Positions 13,022-22,098 of a stretch of DNA of 64,000 nucleotides are shown here, one piece after another; within the stretch, counting starts at the first letter, position 1; every line of letters begins with the position of its first letter. The notes under the pieces are model-generated. The model was not told the DNA's origin. It made no database searches and saw only the letters and a list, made by a program, of their open reading frames with translations. Origin of the DNA: Flavobacteriaceae bacterium (lineage in GTDB: Bacteria > Bacteroidota > Bacteroidia > Flavobacteriales > Flavobacteriaceae); NCBI GenBank assembly GCA_030683815.1, contig JAUXPJ010000012.1, forward strand, positions 1 through 64,000, given 5' to 3'. The translations under genes were made by a program, and so were the position numbers.

Positions 13022-13059
13022 CTGATACGCGTCAATAAACTGACTGATATTGCTCATTG
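13022..13059 (+). promoter_or_regulatory. Candidate paired FNR/FixK-like boxes upstream of the DUF2267 gene
   Basis: CTGATACGCGTCAA (13022-13035) and CTGATATTGCTCAT (13044-13057) are both TGA-N6-TCA sites. Their centres are 22 bp apart, the spacing seen at the three pairs near 15 kb. A TTG at 13057-13059 abuts the second box. The expected -7 element near 13080 is poor, so this is the weakest of the four pairs. Confidence 0.4.
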
Positions 13060-13120: not shown

Positions 13121-13570
13121 ATGCCACATGATTTTAACAAATTCGCCAGTGAGGCCAATAAATTCATTAAAGATTATACAGTAGATCTAAATCTTGGTGC
13201 TGATACTGATAAAGCTTATAGAATTTTAACAGCCATCCTTCACGCCTTTCGTGAAATGATTTCTGTTCAAGAATCTATTCAAATGATATCTCAATTCCCG
13301 ATGTTTTTAAAAGCGGTTTATGTAAATCGTTGGGATGCAAAAATAAATAAAACAAAACCTAAAACTACAGAGCAATTTATTGAATTAGTTCGTGGGAAAT
13401 GCGGTAATACAGCTGAAATTGATTTTCCGGATGATGATATCTCTGAAATGTATTTAAGCGTTACATTTATTGCTTTACGTAAATATATTTCGTTCGGAGA
13501 ACTTGAAGATCTTAAAAGCAACCTGCCAAAAGATTTGAAATGGATGGTTGGTGGAACACTTATGTTTTAA
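13121..13570 (+). CDS. DUF2267 domain protein
   Basis: A 149-residue all-helical protein matching DUF2267. The DTDKAYRILTAILHAFREMIS segment near residues 27-47 and the PDDDISEMYLSVTFIALRKYIS helix near 105-126 are characteristic. Its biochemical role is unknown; in other bacteria such proteins appear in stress or redox gene groups. It starts the stress island, and the next gene follows after 62 bp on the same strand. The paired boxes upstream suggest control by the receiver-CRP regulator at 17.2 kb. Confidence 0.8.
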   Translation: MPHDFNKFASEANKFIKDYTVDLNLGADTDKAYRILTAILHAFREMISVQESIQMISQFPMFLKAVYVNRWDAKINKTKPKTTEQFIELVRGKCGNTAEIDFPDDDISEMYLSVTFIALRKYISFGELEDLKSNLPKDLKWMVGGTLMF

Positions 13571-13632: not shown

Positions 13633-14049
13633 ATGATTAATACAGGAATTTGGATTGATCGACAAAAAGCGCATGTTATAACTTTTAAGGATGAACATGA
13701 AATAGAACAAATTATTGAATCTGATGTTGAAGATTACAATGTCAAAGGCGGTTCTCGCTCTAAAACACCTTGGGGGCCTCAAGATAAAATTTCTGAAAGC
13801 AAGTATTTAGAAAGAAGAAAACATCAACTTAAAAATTATTTTCATAAAATTATGGATGTTGTCAATAATTCTGATGCTATTGCAATTTACGGACCTGCTG
13901 ATACTAAAATCCATTTTAAAGAAGAAATCAAAAAGAACAATAAATCAATTTTTGAAAAGATAAGAATTGTAAAAACTCAAGATAGCATGACTAAAAATCA
14001 GTTTAAAGCATTGGTTAAATCCTTTTCAAATTCAATCAATAAAATTTAA
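13633..14049 (+). CDS. Small eRF1/Pelota-domain-like protein (family uncertain)
   Basis: 138 residues opening GIWIDRQKAHVITF, a middle ERRKHQLKNYFHKIMDVV helix, then the strand AIYGPADTKIHFKEEI and a C-terminal helix. This order resembles the central domain of archaeal/eukaryotic release factor 1, which recurs in bacteria as the baeRF-like families. I recall similar unannotated proteins beside universal stress genes in Flavobacteriaceae. The GGQ loop of true release factors is absent. The gene may be co-transcribed with the DUF2267 gene. The family call is tentative. Confidence 0.55.
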   Translation: MINTGIWIDRQKAHVITFKDEHEIEQIIESDVEDYNVKGGSRSKTPWGPQDKISESKYLERRKHQLKNYFHKIMDVVNNSDAIAIYGPADTKIHFKEEIKKNNKSIFEKIRIVKTQDSMTKNQFKALVKSFSNSINKI

Positions 14050-14071: not shown

Positions 14072-14500
14072 TTACTCATTTATTTTTTTCTGTTTATTTC
14101 TTTTTAATATTTCTTTAATTAAGTCATATGCATTTGATTTTAAATCTTTTACACTTTGTAAATACAATAACTTTTTCTCATTAATTACACAGTGTTTTGT
14201 GTAAAATTCTTTTTCCCCCTCCAAATTATTGCTTTCAATAAGTGTTGCTAAATATTTTTGTTGGGTATATATTTCTGATTTTAAATGATTTAATTTTAAT
14301 TTATTTAAATCAAATTGTTTAATTATTTCTTTTGATTTATTATATAATTCAAAATTGCAAAGTTCTATAAAATATGAGTTGATGAGTTCTTCTAAAATCG
14401 TTTCTTCATCAAATATAAAATCTAATTCAGATAACCACTCTTTATAGGTTTCGTAAATTAAGTTGGGGGTTTTTAATTCTGTTAATAAAAGATGATCCAT
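14072..14500 (-). CDS. Hypothetical helical protein
   Basis: 142 residues, predominantly Leu/Lys/Glu/Asn-rich helices with likely coiled-coil character between residues 60 and 140. There is no signal peptide or membrane segment, and I do not recognise a family. It lies 65 bp downstream of hsp20 on the same strand with a hairpin between them, so it could be read through from hsp20 or made separately. It converges on the eRF1-like gene. Confidence 0.6.
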   Translation of the reverse strand: MDHLLLTELKTPNLIYETYKEWLSELDFIFDEETILEELINSYFIELCNFELYNKSKEIIKQFDLNKLKLNHLKSEIYTQQKYLATLIESNNLEGEKEFYTKHCVINEKKLLYLQSVKDLKSNAYDLIKEILKRNKQKKINE

Positions 14501-14565: not shown

Positions 14566-15009
14566 TTAAGTAATTTCAATTACTTTAGATTTCGGCAAAA
14601 CTTTATATTCTTCTTTTTTGAAGATTATAATATTTAGAATTCCATTTTCATAATGAGCTTCTATTTTTTTATCCGTATCAATACTGTTGGGCAAAGTAAC
14701 TGAACGACTAAAGGAGCTGAAATTAAACTCTTTACGAGAGTATCCTTCCTCCTTTTCTTCTTTTTCACTAACTTTTTCAGCAGAAATAGTCAGTAAATCA
14801 TTTTCCAATCTCACTTCGAAATCTTTTTTGGTTAAACCCGGAGCAGCTACCTCAATTTCAAATGAGTCTTTTTTCTCCTTAATGTTGATAGCCGGCATCA
14901 ATTGATTTTTAATCACAAAATCGTCATGAAATAATCTTTCATTATTCCAAACATCAGCAAACATACTATCAATCCAAGGAAATCTGTTGTTAAATTTAAC
15001 TAAAGACAT
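14566..15009 (-). CDS. Small heat-shock protein, Hsp20/alpha-crystallin family
   Basis: An ATP-independent holdase of 147 residues. The alpha-crystallin domain spans about residues 38-138. The strand NIKEKKDSFEIEVAAPGLTKKDF, the beta-7 GYSRKEF-FSRSVTLP stretch and the AHYENGILNI segment are typical. It is the first of three minus-strand transcription units preceded by identical paired TGA-N6-TCA boxes (15069-15104). Regulation by the nearby FixL/FNR-like pair is therefore likely, as for the alpha-crystallin gene of the mycobacterial DosR regulon. The start ATG is followed by SLVKFNNRFPWIDSMF, typical for this phylum. Confidence 0.96.
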   Translation of the reverse strand: MSLVKFNNRFPWIDSMFADVWNNERLFHDDFVIKNQLMPAINIKEKKDSFEIEVAAPGLTKKDFEVRLENDLLTISAEKVSEKEEKEEGYSRKEFNFSSFSRSVTLPNSIDTDKKIEAHYENGILNIIIFKKEEYKVLPKSKVIEIT

Positions 15010-15038: not shown

Positions 15039-15104
15039 CGAAGTTACGCTCTTATTAAAGAAATATCAATGATGAACATCAACTTAATGATTGATTGTAA
15101 TCAC
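15039..15104 (-). promoter_or_regulatory. hsp20 promoter with two FNR/FixK-like boxes 22 bp apart
   Basis: The boxes are TTGATTGTAATCAC (15091-15104) and ATGATGAACATCAA (15069-15082), both TGA-N6-TCA with centres 22 bp apart. On the minus strand a TTG (15067-15069) abuts the proximal box. Twenty bases further is the -7-like element TAACTTCG (15039-15046). The proximal box centre is 33 bp from the -7 centre, placing it near -41.5, the class II activator position. The spacing matches the units at 15300-15365 and 15599-15665. Confidence 0.65.
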
Positions 15105-15116
15105 ATCCTAATGCTA

Positions 15117-15296
15117 TAAAAAAAGCGGAAATTTTCATTTCCGCTCAAAGAAAGTTTCACCAATTTATAACTCAAATAAAATTTTCAAAATTCCCTCGAA
15201 CTTTCCACCAAGCAATTCAACGAAGGAATCTCATAAATTTTACTGCATTAATATCAGTGTACTTTCTAATTAACTTTAAATGACCTGAATCACTGT
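15117..15296 (-). ncRNA. Putative regulatory small RNA 1 (about 180 nt)
   Basis: A promoter with paired boxes (15300-15365) predicts a start near 15296. An intrinsic terminator (AGCGGAAA with TTTCCGCT, 15124-15145, then seven U) ends the transcript just before the hsp20 boxes. No ORF above a few codons is present. The RNA can form an internal 10-bp stem between GAUUCCUUCG and CGAGGGAAUU and a second GAAAGUU/AACUUUC pairing. I infer a small RNA; transcription is not demonstrated. Confidence 0.5.
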
Positions 15297-15299
15297 ATG

Positions 15300-15365
15300 T
15301 AAAAGTACTATTATATTAATCATTTATCAATGATATAAATCAATTTGAATAATGACATTAATCAA
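15300..15365 (-). promoter_or_regulatory. Promoter of putative sRNA 1 with two FNR/FixK-like boxes 22 bp apart
   Basis: In forward orientation the boxes are ATGATATAAATCAA (15330-15343) and ATGACATTAATCAA (15352-15365), with centres 22 bp apart. On the minus strand a TTG (15328-15330) abuts the proximal box, and the -7 element TACTTTTA (15300-15307) follows 20 bases later. Box-to-(-7) distance is 33 bp, identical to the hsp20 promoter. Confidence 0.6.
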
Positions 15366-15370
15366 TGGTA

Positions 15371-15595
15371 TAAAAATAAAGAAACGGGTTGCTTTCACTT
15401 CCCGTTTCCTCTAAAGAGATCAACTTTACTTTCCAATCCCTTTTGCATTTCTAGACTATTCTTTCGAATAATTATCGAAAATAAGATTTTTAAATTCAAT
15501 TAACCTCCTCATAAACGCTCTCACTTTTCAGGGTAAGAACACCATATTTTCTCTCGAAAACTAACTCCCTTTAAATATTTTCAAGATCTTTGATA
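15371..15595 (-). ncRNA. Putative regulatory small RNA 2 (about 220 nt)
   Basis: The promoter at 15599-15665 predicts a start near 15595. The transcript ends at GAAACGGG/CCCGTTTC (15381-15408) followed by a U-rich stretch, directly against the boxes of the sRNA 1 promoter. Two tiny frames exist on the minus strand: 18 codons (MRRLIEFKNLIFDNYSKE), which contains its own AGGAGG, and 17 codons near the 3' end. A short peptide mRNA therefore remains possible. Expression is inferred only. Confidence 0.45.
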
Positions 15596-15598
15596 CGC

Positions 15599-15665
15599 CA
15601 AAATTACAACATCTGACACCTCATAAACAATGATAACAATCAATTATTTAATTGATTGTTATCAT
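15599..15665 (-). promoter_or_regulatory. Promoter of putative sRNA 2; boxes form a 38-bp near-perfect palindrome
   Basis: ATGATAACAATCAA (15630-15643) and TTGATTGTTATCAT (15652-15665) are mirror copies with centres 22 bp apart. They form an inverted repeat with 18-bp arms (15629-15666) that overlaps the stop codon of the upstream membrane-protein gene. A TTG (15628-15630) and a perfect TAATTTTG -7 element (15599-15606) follow on the minus strand with 21 bases between them. Confidence 0.6.
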
Positions 15666-16051
15666 TAATATATTAAAAAATGATATACTTTATTTAAAAG
15701 ATACAATCCCATAAAAAATAAAAACATGAGTATAAATAGTACCCATTTAACTTGAAAATTTTTCAGCTGTTTTTTGGCTAAATCTGGAAATGAAAAAAAT
15801 ACAATCCCTTTAAAAAGAGCGATCCAACCAAACAATGTTATGATTATTCGCCAATCAGAAGTCCAAATATTGTGTAAAAGAATATTGATTAATCCGATTA
15901 TAATGGCCATAAATGAAACTATAAAAAGTAATTTTTCATCTTTTATATAATCAAACATTTGCTTGATTCTTTTGGTATTGATGATGAGTATCACAAAAAA
16001 TATGATTAAATACCATCCCCAAAATTCTGCTAAAAAAATTGATGTATTCAC
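15665..16051 (-). CDS. Small integral membrane protein, function unknown
   Basis: 128 residues with four predicted membrane helices (about 5-25, 40-62, 68-90 and 103-122) and short polar loops. I see no catalytic motif. It begins 5 bases after the end of the universal stress protein gene on the same strand, so the two form an operon. Its stop codon overlaps the palindromic box pair of the next promoter. Confidence 0.75.
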   Translation of the reverse strand: MNTSIFLAEFWGWYLIIFFVILIINTKRIKQMFDYIKDEKLLFIVSFMAIIIGLINILLHNIWTSDWRIIITLFGWIALFKGIVFFSFPDLAKKQLKNFQVKWVLFILMFLFFMGLYLLNKVYHFLIY

Positions 16052-16056
16052 AGCTT

Positions 16057-16902
16057 TTAATTTGATTTATGTAAAACTAACAATGGTATGTTTGTGTGAT
16101 AACTAATTTCCTCCACTTTTGGTTTAAAAAAGAGTTTCTGAAAAAAATTAAGGTTTTTAGGTACCATTGCAATCATATCAATATCCCTGCTTTGTGTAAA
16201 ACAGTTTAAGGCATCTTCTAACATTAAATTATGCAAAGTGTGATAACTATGATTTATATTCTCTAGACATTCAAACATAAAATTTTTATTGGCTAATTGT
16301 TCAGAGGTTAATTCAATTTTCTCCATTTTTACATGAACAATTCTGATGGCAGATTTATGTAAATCTGCAATTTTTAACAGCGTTTTAAGTGCTTTTCTCT
16401 TATAAAATACTTTATGATCTGTAGGGAAAGCTATTTCTTTTGGTGGCTTATAAACAGTATTCTCCGGGATTACAATTAAGGGAACTTTTACTTTATTGAT
16501 TACATCTCCGGTATTTGTTCCAATAAAAATTTCTTTGGCGCCAGTTGCTCCTTTTGTACCCATAACAATTAAGTCAATATCATTTTTCTTAACCACTTCT
16601 TTGATGGCATCTAAAAAGAAATTGTATTCTGATACCTTTCTAAAAGTGTGTTTCGGGTTTTTTTTACGCTCATTAATTCTTTGTAATATTTTGTCTAAAT
16701 TTTCACTTGTTGTTTTAAACAAGGTTTCTTCTAGATCTTCGTTAGTACTTGTTACCATAAAATCATCGGTGGTATAAGCCGGTAATCTATAAGAGTTAAA
16801 GACATAAAAATTACATGGTTCGTCTTTAAATAACTCCATGGCGTATTGAATTGCATTCCATGAGTTTTCTGAAAAATCCGTAGGAAGAAGTATATTTTTC
16901 AT
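16057..16902 (-). CDS. Universal stress protein (tandem UspA domains)
   Basis: 281 residues with two UspA folds. Domain 1 (about 1-145) keeps LLPTDFSENSWNAI and the ATP-loop-like GTKGATGAKEIFIGTNTGDVI. Domain 2 (about 150-281) has FPTDHK at the start and lacks the complete nucleotide loop. Such proteins accumulate in growth arrest, hypoxia or oxidative stress. The gene heads a two-gene unit with the small membrane protein. No TGA-N6-TCA pair of the 22-bp type is seen upstream; instead a dispersed-repeat-like segment lies in its promoter region. Confidence 0.93.
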   Translation of the reverse strand: MKNILLPTDFSENSWNAIQYAMELFKDEPCNFYVFNSYRLPAYTTDDFMVTSTNEDLEETLFKTTSENLDKILQRINERKKNPKHTFRKVSEYNFFLDAIKEVVKKNDIDLIVMGTKGATGAKEIFIGTNTGDVINKVKVPLIVIPENTVYKPPKEIAFPTDHKVFYKRKALKTLLKIADLHKSAIRIVHVKMEKIELTSEQLANKNFMFECLENINHSYHTLHNLMLEDALNCFTQSRDIDMIAMVPKNLNFFQKLFFKPKVEEISYHTNIPLLVLHKSN

Positions 16903-17221: not shown

Positions 17222-18238
17222 TTATAAGATTTTTTTTAATTTATCTGAATTGATAACTTTTACAACATTTCTCGATGTTGATATCAATCCTTCTTCTTTA
17301 AAATCAGTTAAAGTTCTGATGAGTGTTTCTTTTGCAATTCCGGTTAAACTGGCTAAATCACTTCTACTTATTTTAATTTCATTTTCTATACTTGATTTCT
17401 TAGCTAAATTTAGCAGTGTTGAAGCTGTTTTCTTTCTTACAGAACCGTAAGCCATTTGCAATAATTGTTCTTTGACTTCTTTAACATTTTTAGATAATCG
17501 TTTTATAAATTCAAATGCGAACAAATGATTTTTTTCAACTAAATCAATGATATCTTCTTTTAAAATTTTGTAAATATTACAATTGGTAAGACAAACGGCA
17601 TATTCACTATGTGATGAATTGATGAAGAAAGAACTATATCCAAAATAATCACCTTCCTTATACATTCCGGTGATTAATTCTTTACCATCAGATGTTATTT
17701 TATATGTTTTAACTTCTCCTTTTCCAATAAAATAAAGGTATTTACTATTATTTCCTTCATAATAAATAGTATTTTCTTTTTTAAAAGAGGTTAAATTTTC
17801 AGGTATTAATAAATTCTCAAGAGTTTTGAGGTGTTTTTCATCATGTGGTTCGTTTTTATTTTCAAATGCTTCCCTCCTTTTCAATCTACTTTCTATGGCA
17901 CTTAACAATTCTGATTCTTGAAAAGGTTTTAAAATATAATCATCAGCACCTAAATTCATCCCCTTTCTTACTTCAGCATGTTCGGTTTTTGCTGTGATAA
18001 AAATAAATGGAATCTTCGCAATAATAGGTTCTCTGGAGTGAATTTGTAAAACACCATATCCATCTATTTCGGGCATCATAATATCACAAAGGATAATATC
18101 CGGCAAAAATGATTTTGCTTTTTCAATACCAATTCTACCATTTTTAGCGGTTTCTACTTGATAATTGGCCAGCTCAAGAATTTCAGCCGTATTTTCTCTT
18201 ACAATATCATCATCTTCTATTAAAAGTATCTTTTTCAT
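17222..18238 (-). CDS. Response regulator fused to a CRP/FNR-type regulator (receiver, cNMP-like domain, HTH)
   Basis: 338 residues in three parts. A receiver domain (1-120) has acidic residues EDD at 8-10, phospho-acceptor D52 in LCDIMMP and the LKPF lysine near 104. A cyclic-nucleotide-binding-like beta roll spans about 135-260. A Crp-type winged helix spans about 265-338. The recognition helix reads IAKETLIRTL, keeping the Glu and Arg that contact TGA/TCA half-sites in FNR and CRP. No N-terminal cysteine cluster is present, so it is not an Fe-S FNR. Its start lies 12 bp beyond the kinase stop, so the pair is an operon. It behaves on paper like FixJ and FixK fused in one chain. Confidence 0.93.
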   Translation of the reverse strand: MKKILLIEDDDIVRENTAEILELANYQVETAKNGRIGIEKAKSFLPDIILCDIMMPEIDGYGVLQIHSREPIIAKIPFIFITAKTEHAEVRKGMNLGADDYILKPFQESELLSAIESRLKRREAFENKNEPHDEKHLKTLENLLIPENLTSFKKENTIYYEGNNSKYLYFIGKGEVKTYKITSDGKELITGMYKEGDYFGYSSFFINSSHSEYAVCLTNCNIYKILKEDIIDLVEKNHLFAFEFIKRLSKNVKEVKEQLLQMAYGSVRKKTASTLLNLAKKSSIENEIKISRSDLASLTGIAKETLIRTLTDFKEEGLISTSRNVVKVINSDKLKKIL

Positions 18239-18250
18239 TGGAGTTTATAT

Positions 18251-19495
18251 TTAAGTAATTTGGTAATTTGGTAATTCAAACGTAAAAATGGTTCCTGCAT
18301 TTTCTTTACTTTTAAAATATACAGTTCCTCCAAGTCCATCAATATGACCTTTTATAATATTAAGTCCTATTCCGGTACCTTGAATTTCCATAGCATTTTT
18401 GGCTCTAAAAAATCGTTCAAAAAGATGTTTTTGATCTTCTTTAGGAATTCCTATACCTTCATCTTTTATAGAAACTATCAGTTTGTTATTCTTAATTTTT
18501 GAATCAATTTCGATGATACTTTCTTCCGGTGAATATTTAATGGCGTTATACAATAAATTGGTTATGATAATGGTAATAATTCTTGTGTCGTTTAAAATTT
18601 CTTTATTTGAATTGTTTATTTTGTACTTAATTTTTTGATTCTTCTTTAAAATTGATTTGGTCTCCAATATAATTTTGTTAATTATTTCAAAAGGATTTAC
18701 CTGCTTAAATTGATACTTAATTTCTCCTTTACTAATCTGTTCCAGAGCAAGAAAATCTTGTAAAATGCTATTTAAATGATGAACCATCGATTTAACAAGT
18801 TCAATATGTTTGTCAATTTTTTCTTTGTTATTATTTTGTAAATGTTTCCCAATTAACGTAACTGATGTTAAAATTCCGCTTAACGGAGTTCTAAATTCAT
18901 GTGATGCCAAGGAAATAAACTTAGTTTTTAAATTGTTTAATTCAATCTCTTTTTCAAGTGCACTTTTAGCTTGTTTTTCAGCAACTATTTTGTTTCTAAT
19001 TTCTTCTATTAATACTTTGTTGGTCTCTCTAAGTAATTTGTTTTTAGCACGTAACTCTTTATTTTTATTTTTGAGTTCTTGTCCAAGCTGATAATTTATA
19101 TTTCTAAATAATTGTTCTTTTTGTTTATAATCACTGATATCAGAAATAGATGCCTTCACAAATTGTTTTCCTTCAATTTCAAAATGATTTAATCCAATGA
19201 TAACTTCAACTTTGTGACCTTCTTTATGAATTCCGTATAAATCTCTTTTCTCAAAATCAATTCTATGAAATGGTTTTTTGTGGTAATTTGCTATATTAGT
19301 CTCATGTTTTAGTTTCATTGATTTTGGCAGTAAAATATTAACACTCTGATTAAAAAGTTCTTCCTGTTTATATCCAAATATATTCTCTACTCTACTGTTT
19401 GTCAACAATATGATTCCAAATTCATCCGTAACAATAATTCCCTCTCTAGAGTTTTCAAAGCATATTTTATAAAACTCTTGATTGTTATGCAACAT
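18251..19495 (-). CDS. FixL-like cytosolic PAS sensor histidine kinase
   Basis: 414 residues with no membrane segment. PAS domain: about 5-125. Coiled coil: 130-190. HisKA with SLASHEFRTPLSG (H199). HATPase_c with NAIKYSPEE, DEGIGIP and GTGIGLNI. In the PAS domain, KLKHETNIANY aligns with the FixL segment carrying the proximal heme histidine (H64 here), and KRDLYGIHKEG aligns with the segment carrying the distal arginine (R84 here). I made this alignment from memory of FixL. It predicts a heme-based O2/NO/CO sensor signalling to the adjacent receiver-CRP protein. Confidence 0.88.
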   Translation of the reverse strand: MLHNNQEFYKICFENSREGIIVTDEFGIILLTNSRVENIFGYKQEELFNQSVNILLPKSMKLKHETNIANYHKKPFHRIDFEKRDLYGIHKEGHKVEVIIGLNHFEIEGKQFVKASISDISDYKQKEQLFRNINYQLGQELKNKNKELRAKNKLLRETNKVLIEEIRNKIVAEKQAKSALEKEIELNNLKTKFISLASHEFRTPLSGILTSVTLIGKHLQNNNKEKIDKHIELVKSMVHHLNSILQDFLALEQISKGEIKYQFKQVNPFEIINKIILETKSILKKNQKIKYKINNSNKEILNDTRIITIIITNLLYNAIKYSPEESIIEIDSKIKNNKLIVSIKDEGIGIPKEDQKHLFERFFRAKNAMEIQGTGIGLNIIKGHIDGLGGTVYFKSKENAGTIFTFELPNYQIT

Positions 19496-19777
19496 TATAA
19501 AAATTGATTATGGGTTCTTAAAAGAAGATAAATTTACGAAAAAATAAATTTTATTACTCAAAAATATTAATTATTCAATTGACAATCAGTTTATTTTAAC
19601 TATCATCATTTTAACAAACATTTTCAATATTTCTAATACTTATAAATATTTAAAAAAATTGATGTATTATTTGTAATATATTTTATCTGATAATTCGCAA
19701 TCGTTCTCTTTATTTCAGTAATTTTACCACCGATTTTAAATTAAAATTTTTACAATTTGGAAACTAAAACAACCAAA

Positions 19778-20875
19778 ATGGTACTTACAGATGCTTCTTT
19801 ATTAATTACTGAAGCATGTGTAAAAGCCGGTGCTGATGCTTTTATTGGCTACCCAATAACACCTTCTAATAAGTTTTATTCATACGGCTCAAAAAGATTT
19901 CCTTTGTTTTTAGCCGGACCAGATGAAATTACAGTGTTGCAATGGATGACCGGCTTATCTGCAGCAGGCAAATTTCCCGTAACAGCTACTGCTTTTCCAG
20001 GTTTAGCACTGATGGCAGAAACTTTCAACATGGCTTATATGATGGAATTGCCTATGTTATTGATAATTACTCAACGTTTAGGGCCAAGTACAGGATCTGC
20101 AACTACGGGTGCTCAAGGCGATTTAAGTTTTATCAATGGATTGATTTCCGGTGGATATCCGATTCCGGTTTTGTGTCCATCTAATTTTGAAGATGCTTGG
20201 AAATTAGCTGAAGAAAGCGTTAAAACAGCAATCAATTTAAGAACTCCGGTTATCTTATTGACATCTAAAGAAATGGTGATGACCCAGAAAAGTTTTGATA
20301 TCTCTAAGTTACATGAAATCAATAAAATAAATAGAGTTCATGAAATAATTGATTTACCATATAAAACCTATAAATCTGGCAATAATTTTATTCCTCCGTT
20401 TGTACCGGTAGGAAATGAAGAACATTTAGTCAGATTAAATTCATCTACTCATGATGATGAAGGAATGATTCAAAAGAACTCACCTAATGCCTTGGCAAAC
20501 ACTATCCGATTAAAGGAAAAGATGGAAAAACGATTGGACGAATACACCTTTTTTGAATACGATAAGCAAGATGACAGCAAACATCTTATTGTAACTTACG
20601 GAATTTCTGCAGAGGCATCCAGAGATGCTGTTGAAGAACTTCGTAAAAACAATAAAAAGATTTCTTTGCTTGTTGTAAAAACGTTATTGCCAGTTTCTGA
20701 AAAAATTACCAAAATAATTGATAGTTACCAAAATGTGACCTTTGTTGAAGAAAATATTGGTGGTCAATACAAAGAAATAATCTATGGAAAGGTATCAAGA
20801 TCAAATATCAAACAAGTTAATAAAATTGGTTTTATGATAAGCCCTTCTGATATAATTAAAGAATTATCTTTATGA
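19778..20875 (+). CDS. 2-oxoacid:acceptor oxidoreductase, alpha subunit
   Basis: About 365 residues. It carries the pyrimidine-binding segment of the alpha chain (AFIGYPITPSNKFY, ATAFPGLALMAETFNMAY) and a C-terminal transketolase-C-like domain (LIVTYGISAEASRDAVEELR). With the next gene it forms a TPP enzyme that oxidatively decarboxylates a 2-oxoacid (2-oxoglutarate or pyruvate class) and passes electrons to ferredoxin. I prefer the ATG at 19778; a TTG at 19757 would add seven residues. The next gene overlaps it by 4 bases (ATGA). Confidence 0.88.
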   Translation: MVLTDASLLITEACVKAGADAFIGYPITPSNKFYSYGSKRFPLFLAGPDEITVLQWMTGLSAAGKFPVTATAFPGLALMAETFNMAYMMELPMLLIITQRLGPSTGSATTGAQGDLSFINGLISGGYPIPVLCPSNFEDAWKLAEESVKTAINLRTPVILLTSKEMVMTQKSFDISKLHEINKINRVHEIIDLPYKTYKSGNNFIPPFVPVGNEEHLVRLNSSTHDDEGMIQKNSPNALANTIRLKEKMEKRLDEYTFFEYDKQDDSKHLIVTYGISAEASRDAVEELRKNNKKISLLVVKTLLPVSEKITKIIDSYQNVTFVEENIGGQYKEIIYGKVSRSNIKQVNKIGFMISPSDIIKELSL

Positions 20876-22098
20876 AAAGCGCAGTTTTAACAGATAAAAA
20901 AATGCCATTTTGCCCAGGTTGCGGACATGGCGTTATTGTAAATAGTATTTCAAAAGCTTTTATGGAATTGGGTTATAATCCGTTAGATATTATCATTGTA
21001 AGTGATATTGGATGCAGCGGATTAGTTGATCCTTTGTTTGCTACACATACCGTTCATGGATTGCATGGTAGAGCTCCGGCTTTAGGTTTAGGCGTTGCCA
21101 TGGGTTTAGCCAATCGAAATAAAAAGGTAATTGTTATTCAAGGTGATGGCGGAGCAACTATCGGTTTGCAGCATCTATTAGAAGCTGCCCGAAGAAATAT
21201 TGATGTTACTTTACTCGTTTTTAATAATTTACTTTACGGGATGACAGGCGGACAAATTAGTGGTCTTTCTACCGATAAGTTTAAAGAATTACGTCATGTT
21301 GAAGAAGGAGTTCCTCCTTTTGATATAGTTAGATTAGCTCATCAAGCTGGAGCTGTAAGTAGTGCTCGGGTAATTTCTCCGGCTAATTTTACTGAAAGCA
21401 TCAAATTTGCAGTGGAAACTTCTGGTTTTTCTTTGTTAGAGTTAGCCAGTGTATGTCCGTCATACGGACTTCAAAAAATCAAAGAATTAGATGATTTTTC
21501 AGAAGAAGCTGAAGCACTTTTAAATCATAGAAAAGCGAATGAAGTGGAGTATATTGAAACTCCTTCCCTACTAGATAAAGTAGAAATTATTGTCGATAAA
21601 TTTAACTCATCAATCAATGATCGATACGGAGTTGTATTGGCTGGTTCTGCAGGGGGCGGAATTCAATTAGCGGCAGAATTGTTGGCTAAAGCCGGAATGT
21701 CAGCAGGATTATACGCTACAATGAAAGGCGAATATCCCGTAACTGTGGGAACCGGTTTTTCGATTGCAGAAGTTATTCTATCTCGTAAACCCATCAATTA
21801 TACCGGATTGGATAAACCGGATGTTATTTTTATAATGACTGAAGATGGTTTAGATAAAGTAAAAAATCTGATAAAAAATGAAACGATGATCATTACTGAT
21901 GATTTTTTATCCCTTTCTGCCGATAATATATCTAGTAAATCATTTTCAAAAAAGGTTGGAAAACGAAGTGCTGTTTTAAGTGCTATTTCTTACTGGATTT
22001 CAAATACTGATATTATTCCTGAAGAAGCATTTAAGGAAGCAATTAGACCTCACAAACATGCAGATTTATTAATAAAGGCAATTGAAACGCCTTTGTAA
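20872..22098 (+). CDS. 2-oxoacid:acceptor oxidoreductase, fused beta-gamma subunit
   Basis: 408 residues. The N-terminal half is the TPP-binding beta chain: CPGCGHG near residue 13, GDGGATIGLQHL near 92 and the NNLLYGMTGGQ loop. The C-terminal part (about 245-400) is a gamma domain (VVLAGSAGGGIQLAAELLAKAG, then GTGFSIAEVILS and PDVIFIM). Gamma is more often fused to alpha or separate, so the beta-gamma order is less common. No ferredoxin-like subunit gene is adjacent. The acceptor and the 2-oxoacid cannot be fixed from sequence. Confidence 0.87.
   Translation: MKSAVLTDKKMPFCPGCGHGVIVNSISKAFMELGYNPLDIIIVSDIGCSGLVDPLFATHTVHGLHGRAPALGLGVAMGLANRNKKVIVIQGDGGATIGLQHLLEAARRNIDVTLLVFNNLLYGMTGGQISGLSTDKFKELRHVEEGVPPFDIVRLAHQAGAVSSARVISPANFTESIKFAVETSGFSLLELASVCPSYGLQKIKELDDFSEEAEALLNHRKANEVEYIETPSLLDKVEIIVDKFNSSINDRYGVVLAGSAGGGIQLAAELLAKAGMSAGLYATMKGEYPVTVGTGFSIAEVILSRKPINYTGLDKPDVIFIMTEDGLDKVKNLIKNETMIITDDFLSLSADNISSKSFSKKVGKRSAVLSAISYWISNTDIIPEEAFKEAIRPHKHADLLIKAIETPL

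Follow-up and report, generated by a model that had tools for sequence, protein, structure and literature searches.

Three promoters of one design follow one another head to tail on the minus strand of a Flavobacteriaceae contig (JAUXPJ010000012.1), and neither of the first two, P1 and P2, has a coding sequence to itself. What would such an array produce, and which activator would read it? Analysis of the surrounding 64,000-nt stretch of DNA (hereafter, the window) and of related genomes favors one answer, to which we assign a probability of roughly two in three: these are class II double-dimer promoters, most likely activated by a receiver-CRP response regulator, that make two hypoxia-type small RNAs (sRNAs) and the hsp20 mRNA within a low-oxygen or dormancy-like stress module. 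The answer draws on the geometry and conservation of the boxes, the promoter spacing, the classes of target genes, the anatomy of the RNAs, and the linkage to the receiver-CRP gene, all of which can be read in the genomes themselves.

Geometry of the paired boxes and their conservation

An earlier, sequence-only reading of this DNA described three minus-strand pairs of TGA-N6-TCA boxes, and a search for TGA-N6-TCA-N10-TGA-N6-TCA recovered every one (Table 1). As that reading had it, the box centers are exactly 22 bp apart and a TTG abuts the proximal box at P1, P2, and P3. Its spacings to a TAnnTTTG-like element, given as 20, 20, and 21 in ascending coordinates, correspond to 21, 20, and 20 for P1, P2, and P3, and these -7 elements match TAnnTTTG at 6/6 (TAATTTTG), 5/6 (TACTTTTA), and 5/6 (TAACTTCG) positions, respectively. 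The transcription start site (TSS) was set 5 nt past the -7 element, a prediction that follows the placement of TAnnTTTG at -12 to -5 in a Flavobacterium transcriptome study (PMC9723704). With this numbering, the proximal boxes center on -42.5, -41.5, and -41.5, in agreement with a proposed location near -41.5, and the distal boxes are centered 22 bp further upstream. The boxes had also been called identical, which is true of their geometry and core but not of the six inner bases or the spacer.

The same reading held that the arrangement was not due to chance, and the controls bear this out. The pattern occurs four times in the window and not once in 100 dinucleotide shuffles, and the whole 2.5-Mb genome contains five copies as compared to zero in a reversed control. 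Four of these five lie within the window cluster, and all five are directly followed by TTG. The fourth pair, P4, is absent from the earlier reading and is located upstream of a DUF2267 gene; its counterpart in the congener G183 (C16:16328) possesses a better -7 element, TAACTTCT. The fifth (G000:C18:44088) lies upstream of a 32-aa membrane peptide (MKIITIVITVVLISFLLYVLFKYIRKFLDQIW; MKVFTIIITALLIGLLVYAVFKYIKKVYNQNL), which is found under the same promoter type in both congeners (L057:4122, i.e., G000:C18:44121, minus strand; and L045:3225).

Table 1. Promoters, genes, and predicted RNAs of the array and its surroundings, in window coordinates.
Feature	Position	Strand	Remarks
P4 double box	13023-13056	+	TTG 13057-13059; degenerate -7 element GAACTTGA
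DUF2267 gene	13121-13570	+	Under P4; E = 1.6e-20
138-aa protein	13633-14049	+	Likely in DUF2267 operon; also in congener G183; no Pfam or NCBIfam family match
142-aa protein	14072-14500	-	Accompanies hsp20 in relatives; without a match in Pfam or NCBIfam
hsp20	14566-15009	-	Under P3; PF00011, E = 2.4e-19
P3 -7 element TAACTTCG	15039-15046	-	N20 from TTG; predicted TSS ~15034; leader ~25 nt
P3 TTG	15067-15069	-	
P3 double box TGATTACAATCA-N10-TGATGTTCATCA	15070-15103	-	Pattern search
sRNA2	15116-15295	-	~180 nt, predicted noncoding; fold z = -5.25
sRNA2 intrinsic terminator	15146-15123	-	
sRNA2 hairpin II	15267-15149	-	
P2 -7 element TACTTTTA	15300-15307	-	N20 from TTG; predicted TSS ~15295
P2 TTG	15328-15330	-	
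P2 double box TGATTAATGTCA-N10-TGATTTATATCA	15331-15364	-	Pattern search
sRNA1	15372-15594	-	~223 nt, predicted noncoding; fold z = -3.5; 5' hairpins
sRNA1 terminator hairpin III	15409-15381	-	Followed by T tail
sRNA1 long hairpin II	15511-15412	-	
P1 -7 element TAATTTTG	15599-15606	-	N21 from TTG; predicted TSS ~15594
P1 -33 TTG	15628-15630	-	Abuts proximal box
P1 double box TGATAACAATCA-N10-TGATTGTTATCA	15631-15664	-	Directly 3' of 128-aa gene end; pattern search
128-aa membrane-type protein	15665-16051	-	Conserved operon end
Universal stress protein (usp)	16057-16902	-	E = 6.4e-23
Receiver-CRP response regulator	17222-18238	-	REC-cNMP-HTH_Crp; helix GIAKETLIR; candidate activator
PAS histidine kinase	18251-19495	-	Proposed partner of receiver-CRP; conserved adjacency

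Among 301 Flavobacteriaceae genomes, the pair with its TTG was found in 11 genomes of eight genera, with up to 13 copies each and a reversed control of zero throughout; the pair is single-copy in two of the 11, which may be chance matches. When any spacer from 0 to 30 was allowed in the nine family genomes with several copies, 58 of the 67 box pairs abutting a TTG were separated by N10, with at most three at any other spacer, although motif-bearing genomes may be related and counts across them are therefore not independent. The downstream element behaves in the same way. At 60 pair-plus-TTG sites collected irrespective of any -7 element, a match to TAnnTTTG (at least 5/6) stands at N20 in 34 and at N21 in five, and at most four occur at any other distance. 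Since these sites were unselected, the peak at N20/N21 (39/60) is independent support for the promoter geometry, and with the predicted TSS it places the box near -41.5 and against the -33 element, as expected of class II promoters. A fixed box spacing combined with a fixed -7 distance supports a class II double-dimer promoter, and on sequence evidence the three promoters are real and evolutionarily conserved.

Conservation ahead of orthologous hsp20 genes, on which the sequence-only reading had staked its proposal, was also found. The pair, its TTG, and a -7-like element (N18-21) occur upstream of hsp20 in G183, Lutimonas (G025 and G255), G148, and G117, as well as in L153, L168, L233, and L242. 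The core order in Flavobacteriaceae is a kinase–receiver-CRP–usp–128-aa operon followed by P1, P2, P3, and hsp20. The window's full order of genes and promoters is kept in G183, Lutimonas (G025 and G255), G148, and L153, in part on contigs L237 and L242, and with fewer promoters in G117 and L168. A scan for the complete architecture, as had been suggested, returned at least 116 stretches across GTDB genomes; among the matches listed, the records are all from Bacteroidota, Ignavibacteria, or Chlorobi, presumably the phyla where a TTG/TAnnTTTG promoter type is to be expected. The strict architecture occurs in one of 297 phylum-sampled genomes, namely the window's own, and is therefore patchy rather than general.

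Downstream genes and candidate activators

The first genes downstream of the pairs, taken phylum-wide, include CcoI-type copper ATPases (10/83), Usp (7/83), Hsp20 (6/83), ccoNO fusions (3/83), and FixS (2/83). The cbb3-oxidase targets that characterize a FixK/FNR-type microoxic regulon are thus present across the phylum; within the window, no cbb3 genes lie under a box pair. From the ccoI, ccoNO, ccoS, usp, and hsp20 families we infer that the pairs serve a low-oxygen regulon. Pairs were also seen upstream of an apparent primary-type sigma factor gene of 286 aa (L124; G271:C7:141666) and of an indolepyruvate:ferredoxin oxidoreductase-like gene, an anaerobic-type enzyme (L125; G048:C89:14641). 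In the window, a korAB-like 2-oxoacid:ferredoxin oxidoreductase (19757-22098) is divergent from the kinase gene, and the intergenic region that they share has neither a double nor a single box. A different arrangement occurs at a feoA-like gene (L006, G000:C9:70054; L277; L288; also in G048 and G271), where a single box is accompanied by a Fur/PerR-like TTAGAATNATTCTAA palindrome between -33 and -7. The single boxes that precede feoA and hemN point to a distinct class of FNR type.

Five Crp-type HTH proteins are encoded in the genome, and two of them are serious candidates for binding the pairs. The best supported is the receiver-CRP, whose gene adjoins the array in every family array seen whole and lies near pairs in some Chitinophagales and Saprospiraceae. 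Its N terminus contains a receiver domain in place of the cysteine cluster that would hold the Fe-S center of FNR, and for that reason the activator system is not FNR in the strict sense. The second is an FNR-like paralogue (C12:134517) with a CxxC near the N terminus; the protein (L244) contains CEHC and further Cys, and it scores 72.9 of 228 bits against the Fnr model, far below the cut-off. Both candidates have the Glu and Arg suited to reading TGA, in KETLIR (receiver-CRP) and TESVIR (paralogue). Just ahead of the Glu, nearly every family receiver-CRP linked to TTG double boxes has Lys or Asn, and those that lack such boxes have Thr, Ser, or Pro, the exceptions being G271 and L215 (Thr, yet with pairs) and L310, L315, and L325 (Lys, in genomes G204, G182, and G055 without pairs). 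Aligned by motif, this residue would correspond to position 180 of CRP, which has been reported to determine specificity together with position 181 (PMC1274295). The receiver-CRP is present in 112 of 237 family genera and the pair in only eight, and the pair therefore cannot be predicted from the presence of this protein alone.

The serious rival is that both dimers are FNR-like and that the adjacent receiver-CRP is incidental, a reading that we consider rather unlikely. Close orthologues of the paralogue (E < 1e-69) are found in all nine motif-bearing family genomes and in no more than nine others of those sampled, in Chitinophaga an FNR-like gene and ccoI often flank the pair, and the target genes are of FNR type. 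However, none of those nine other genomes has a pair, and eight of them lack the receiver-CRP. The feoA and hemN boxes look like an FNR class of their own, the sRNA terminators described below track the receiver-CRP gene, and the receiver-CRP helix Lys goes with the pair.

It is conceivable that one box serves each protein, forming an AND gate for a kinase signal and oxygen, and this heterotypic arrangement ranks third. Pairs do occur in nine of the ten family genomes with both proteins, and genomes without one of them yield just two isolated single-copy hits. The distal consensus, TGAYnAnAATCA, differs from the proximal one, TGATnnnnATCA, and single boxes serve the same sRNAs where FNR is more distant. 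Against this, the numbers are small and the genomes possibly related, G120 has both proteins and no pair, and the core is common to both boxes; we regard the arrangement as distinctly unlikely. That such a side-by-side gate controls tandem structured sRNAs forming a hitherto unknown set across the family is likewise an unlikely combination. The homotypic receiver-CRP promoter is the reading retained below.

Predicted small RNAs downstream of P1 and P2

The segments that follow P1 and P2, predicted to be structured and noncoding, were missed by the sequence-only reading. ORFs on the transcribed strand from P1 to P3 do not exceed 34 aa, and a small protein encoded in the inter-promoter segments was rejected for want of a conserved ORF. 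Each segment ends in an intrinsic terminator, that of sRNA1 being directly legible in the sequence and conserved in relatives, and each folds more stably than its dinucleotide shuffles (z-scores in Table 1).

Twenty-two such units were collected from the window and its relatives: 19 of P1 type, from about a dozen genera, and three of P2 type. In all of them, a long hairpin II of 91–123 nt (z from -1.9 to -6.8) is closed by a stem of 11–16 pairs only a few nt from the terminator hairpin, and an equally good closing stem appears in 0–2% of shuffles. The closing stem does not align in a primary-sequence alignment of the RNA cores, so pairing was assessed sequence by sequence. Its sequence has been rewritten between genera while complementarity was kept: the outer pairs number 8/8 (by construction), as opposed to a mean of 3.95 when strands are mixed between groups. 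Sequence conservation is seen in the terminator stem, GRAACRGGAAG/CTTCCYGTTYC, and in a stretch of sRNA2, GCTTGGTGGAAAGTT, that is invariant in an alignment of the window, G183, and L237. The complement of this stretch occurs elsewhere in the window no more often than by chance.

Among 40 genomes, the terminator stem was found 12 times, nine of them within ~5 kb of a receiver-CRP gene, and not at all in the 16 genomes without that gene. Most P1-type units are located after the receiver-CRP operon. Genera without the TTG pair also carry these RNAs after that operon, often preceded by a single box of the form TGATAwATATCATT, and the RNAs are thus more widely distributed than the double-box genera. 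Several variants were also observed. In G271:C4 (L303:1251-2493), a second, unlinked module consists of a double box without TTG, two tandem sRNAs, and then hsp20, while G177 (L088:5488-6072) has three tandem units after one single-box promoter. An uncharacterized secreted protein of 168 aa takes the place of sRNA2 behind P2 in Lutimonas, G148, and relatives (L040:6641-7147, L041, L042, L242). A BoxA-like GTTCTTT lies near the sRNA 5' end in L168, G221, G177, G165, and L303; it is absent from the window and is not claimed as an sRNA feature. A search of Rfam returned no family match for the sRNAs, and its weak, sub-threshold hits to plastid and L20-leader families were taken as chance.

With a promoter and terminator of its own, no conserved ORF, and a conserved structure, each predicted transcript has the makings of an independent sRNA gene, and sRNA1 and sRNA2 are predicted to be previously undescribed structured small RNAs. 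Instead, hsp20 could have P1 and P2 as further promoters upstream of its own, the hairpins acting as attenuators within a long leader; all three promoters do point head to tail toward hsp20, and the terminators could be leaky. Yet hsp20 has a complete promoter of its own ~25 nt from its start codon, a terminator and T run closes each unit, P2 drives the secreted protein in Lutimonas and G148, and in G177, G221, and others the stretch examined has the RNAs but no hsp20 behind them, all of which makes a leader quite improbable. Least of all can the array be put down to a mobile repeat or to chance clustering of palindromic cores in AT-rich intergenic DNA, readings refuted by the zero counts in 100 shuffles and in the reversed control of every family-scan genome and opposed by the conserved position and downstream genes of the pairs.

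A proposed circuit and its relation to known systems

The mechanism that we infer runs from signal and phosphorylation through binding, activation, and transcription to sRNA action. The PAS kinase would be activated by low oxygen or respiratory stress and would switch the receiver-CRP, which, once phosphorylated, would fill the two boxes with a pair of neighboring dimers on one face of the DNA. P1 to P3 would be activator-dependent Bacteroidota promoters of sigma-A type (TTG ... TAnnTTTG), and the proximal dimer, at about -41.5 and abutting the -33 TTG, would touch RNA polymerase in the class II manner. P1 would then produce sRNA1 and P2 sRNA2, each with its own intrinsic terminator, and P3 the hsp20 mRNA, all as separate units, while P4, on the opposite strand, would serve DUF2267 and the 138-aa protein. 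The array, usp, and the 128-aa gene may jointly form a module for low-oxygen or dormancy-like stress, in which the sRNAs would act post-transcriptionally on their targets.

In E. coli class II CRP/FNR promoters, the activator box lies at about -41.5, CRP and FNR sites have a common TGA-N6-TCA core, and the recognition helix reads Glu-x3-Arg. The predicted promoters and candidate activator described here resemble them in all three respects. What sets them apart is a further dimer site, invariably 22 bp upstream, together with -33/-7 elements of the Bacteroidota kind and a receiver-CRP as the likely activator. The ccoNO, ccoI, and ccoS targets found across the phylum are those of FixK/FNR microoxic regulons; here, however, the box is paired, the oxygen response is predicted from gene content, and the visible core in Flavobacteriaceae is hsp20, usp, and the sRNAs. 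FNR-dependent sRNAs such as FnrS likewise combine an intrinsic terminator with control by an activator of the Crp/Fnr family, which is predicted here. No relation to them in sequence or structure was found, and the present RNAs are distinguished by tandem units, a long irregular hairpin, and the lack of an Rfam match.

A working parallel, with no suggestion of common ancestry, is the DosR dormancy regulon of mycobacteria, in which a two-component response regulator likewise goes together with a chaperone of Hsp20 type, with universal stress proteins, and with an sRNA. The regulator there, DosR, is of NarL type, in contrast to the receiver-CRP. The mycobacterial sRNA, DrrS, is DosR-dependent (PMC5360333). 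Within Bacteroidota, HcpR2 of Bacteroides is also a Crp/Fnr-family regulator, but its motif, GTAACnnnnGTTAC, differs from the box pair, and its regulon in most Bacteroides comprises only hcp (PMC1274295). Carbon sensing is the role that a meta-regulon study gave to Crp/Fnr homologues in Flavobacteriales and Saprospiraceae (PMC8510549). The Flavobacterium psychrophilum transcriptome study reports that cbb3 is induced when oxygen is limiting and that sRNAs are numerous; the passages found in it do not include this motif, and "Crp" is absent from its main text (PMC9723704). The sequence-only reading knew of no description of a double-box class II architecture in Bacteroidota, and none emerged from a search confined to open-access papers without their supplements.

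Bacteroidota are abundant in seas, soils, and guts, and their control by oxygen is poorly understood. The array provides an exact, searchable promoter signature, a candidate regulator, a predicted new family of structured RNAs, and a list of likely targets that includes cbb3 oxidase and its maturation, Hsp20, and universal stress proteins. A low-oxygen network of the Flavobacteriaceae would thereby be open to direct testing, as a circuit in a largely unstudied phylum.
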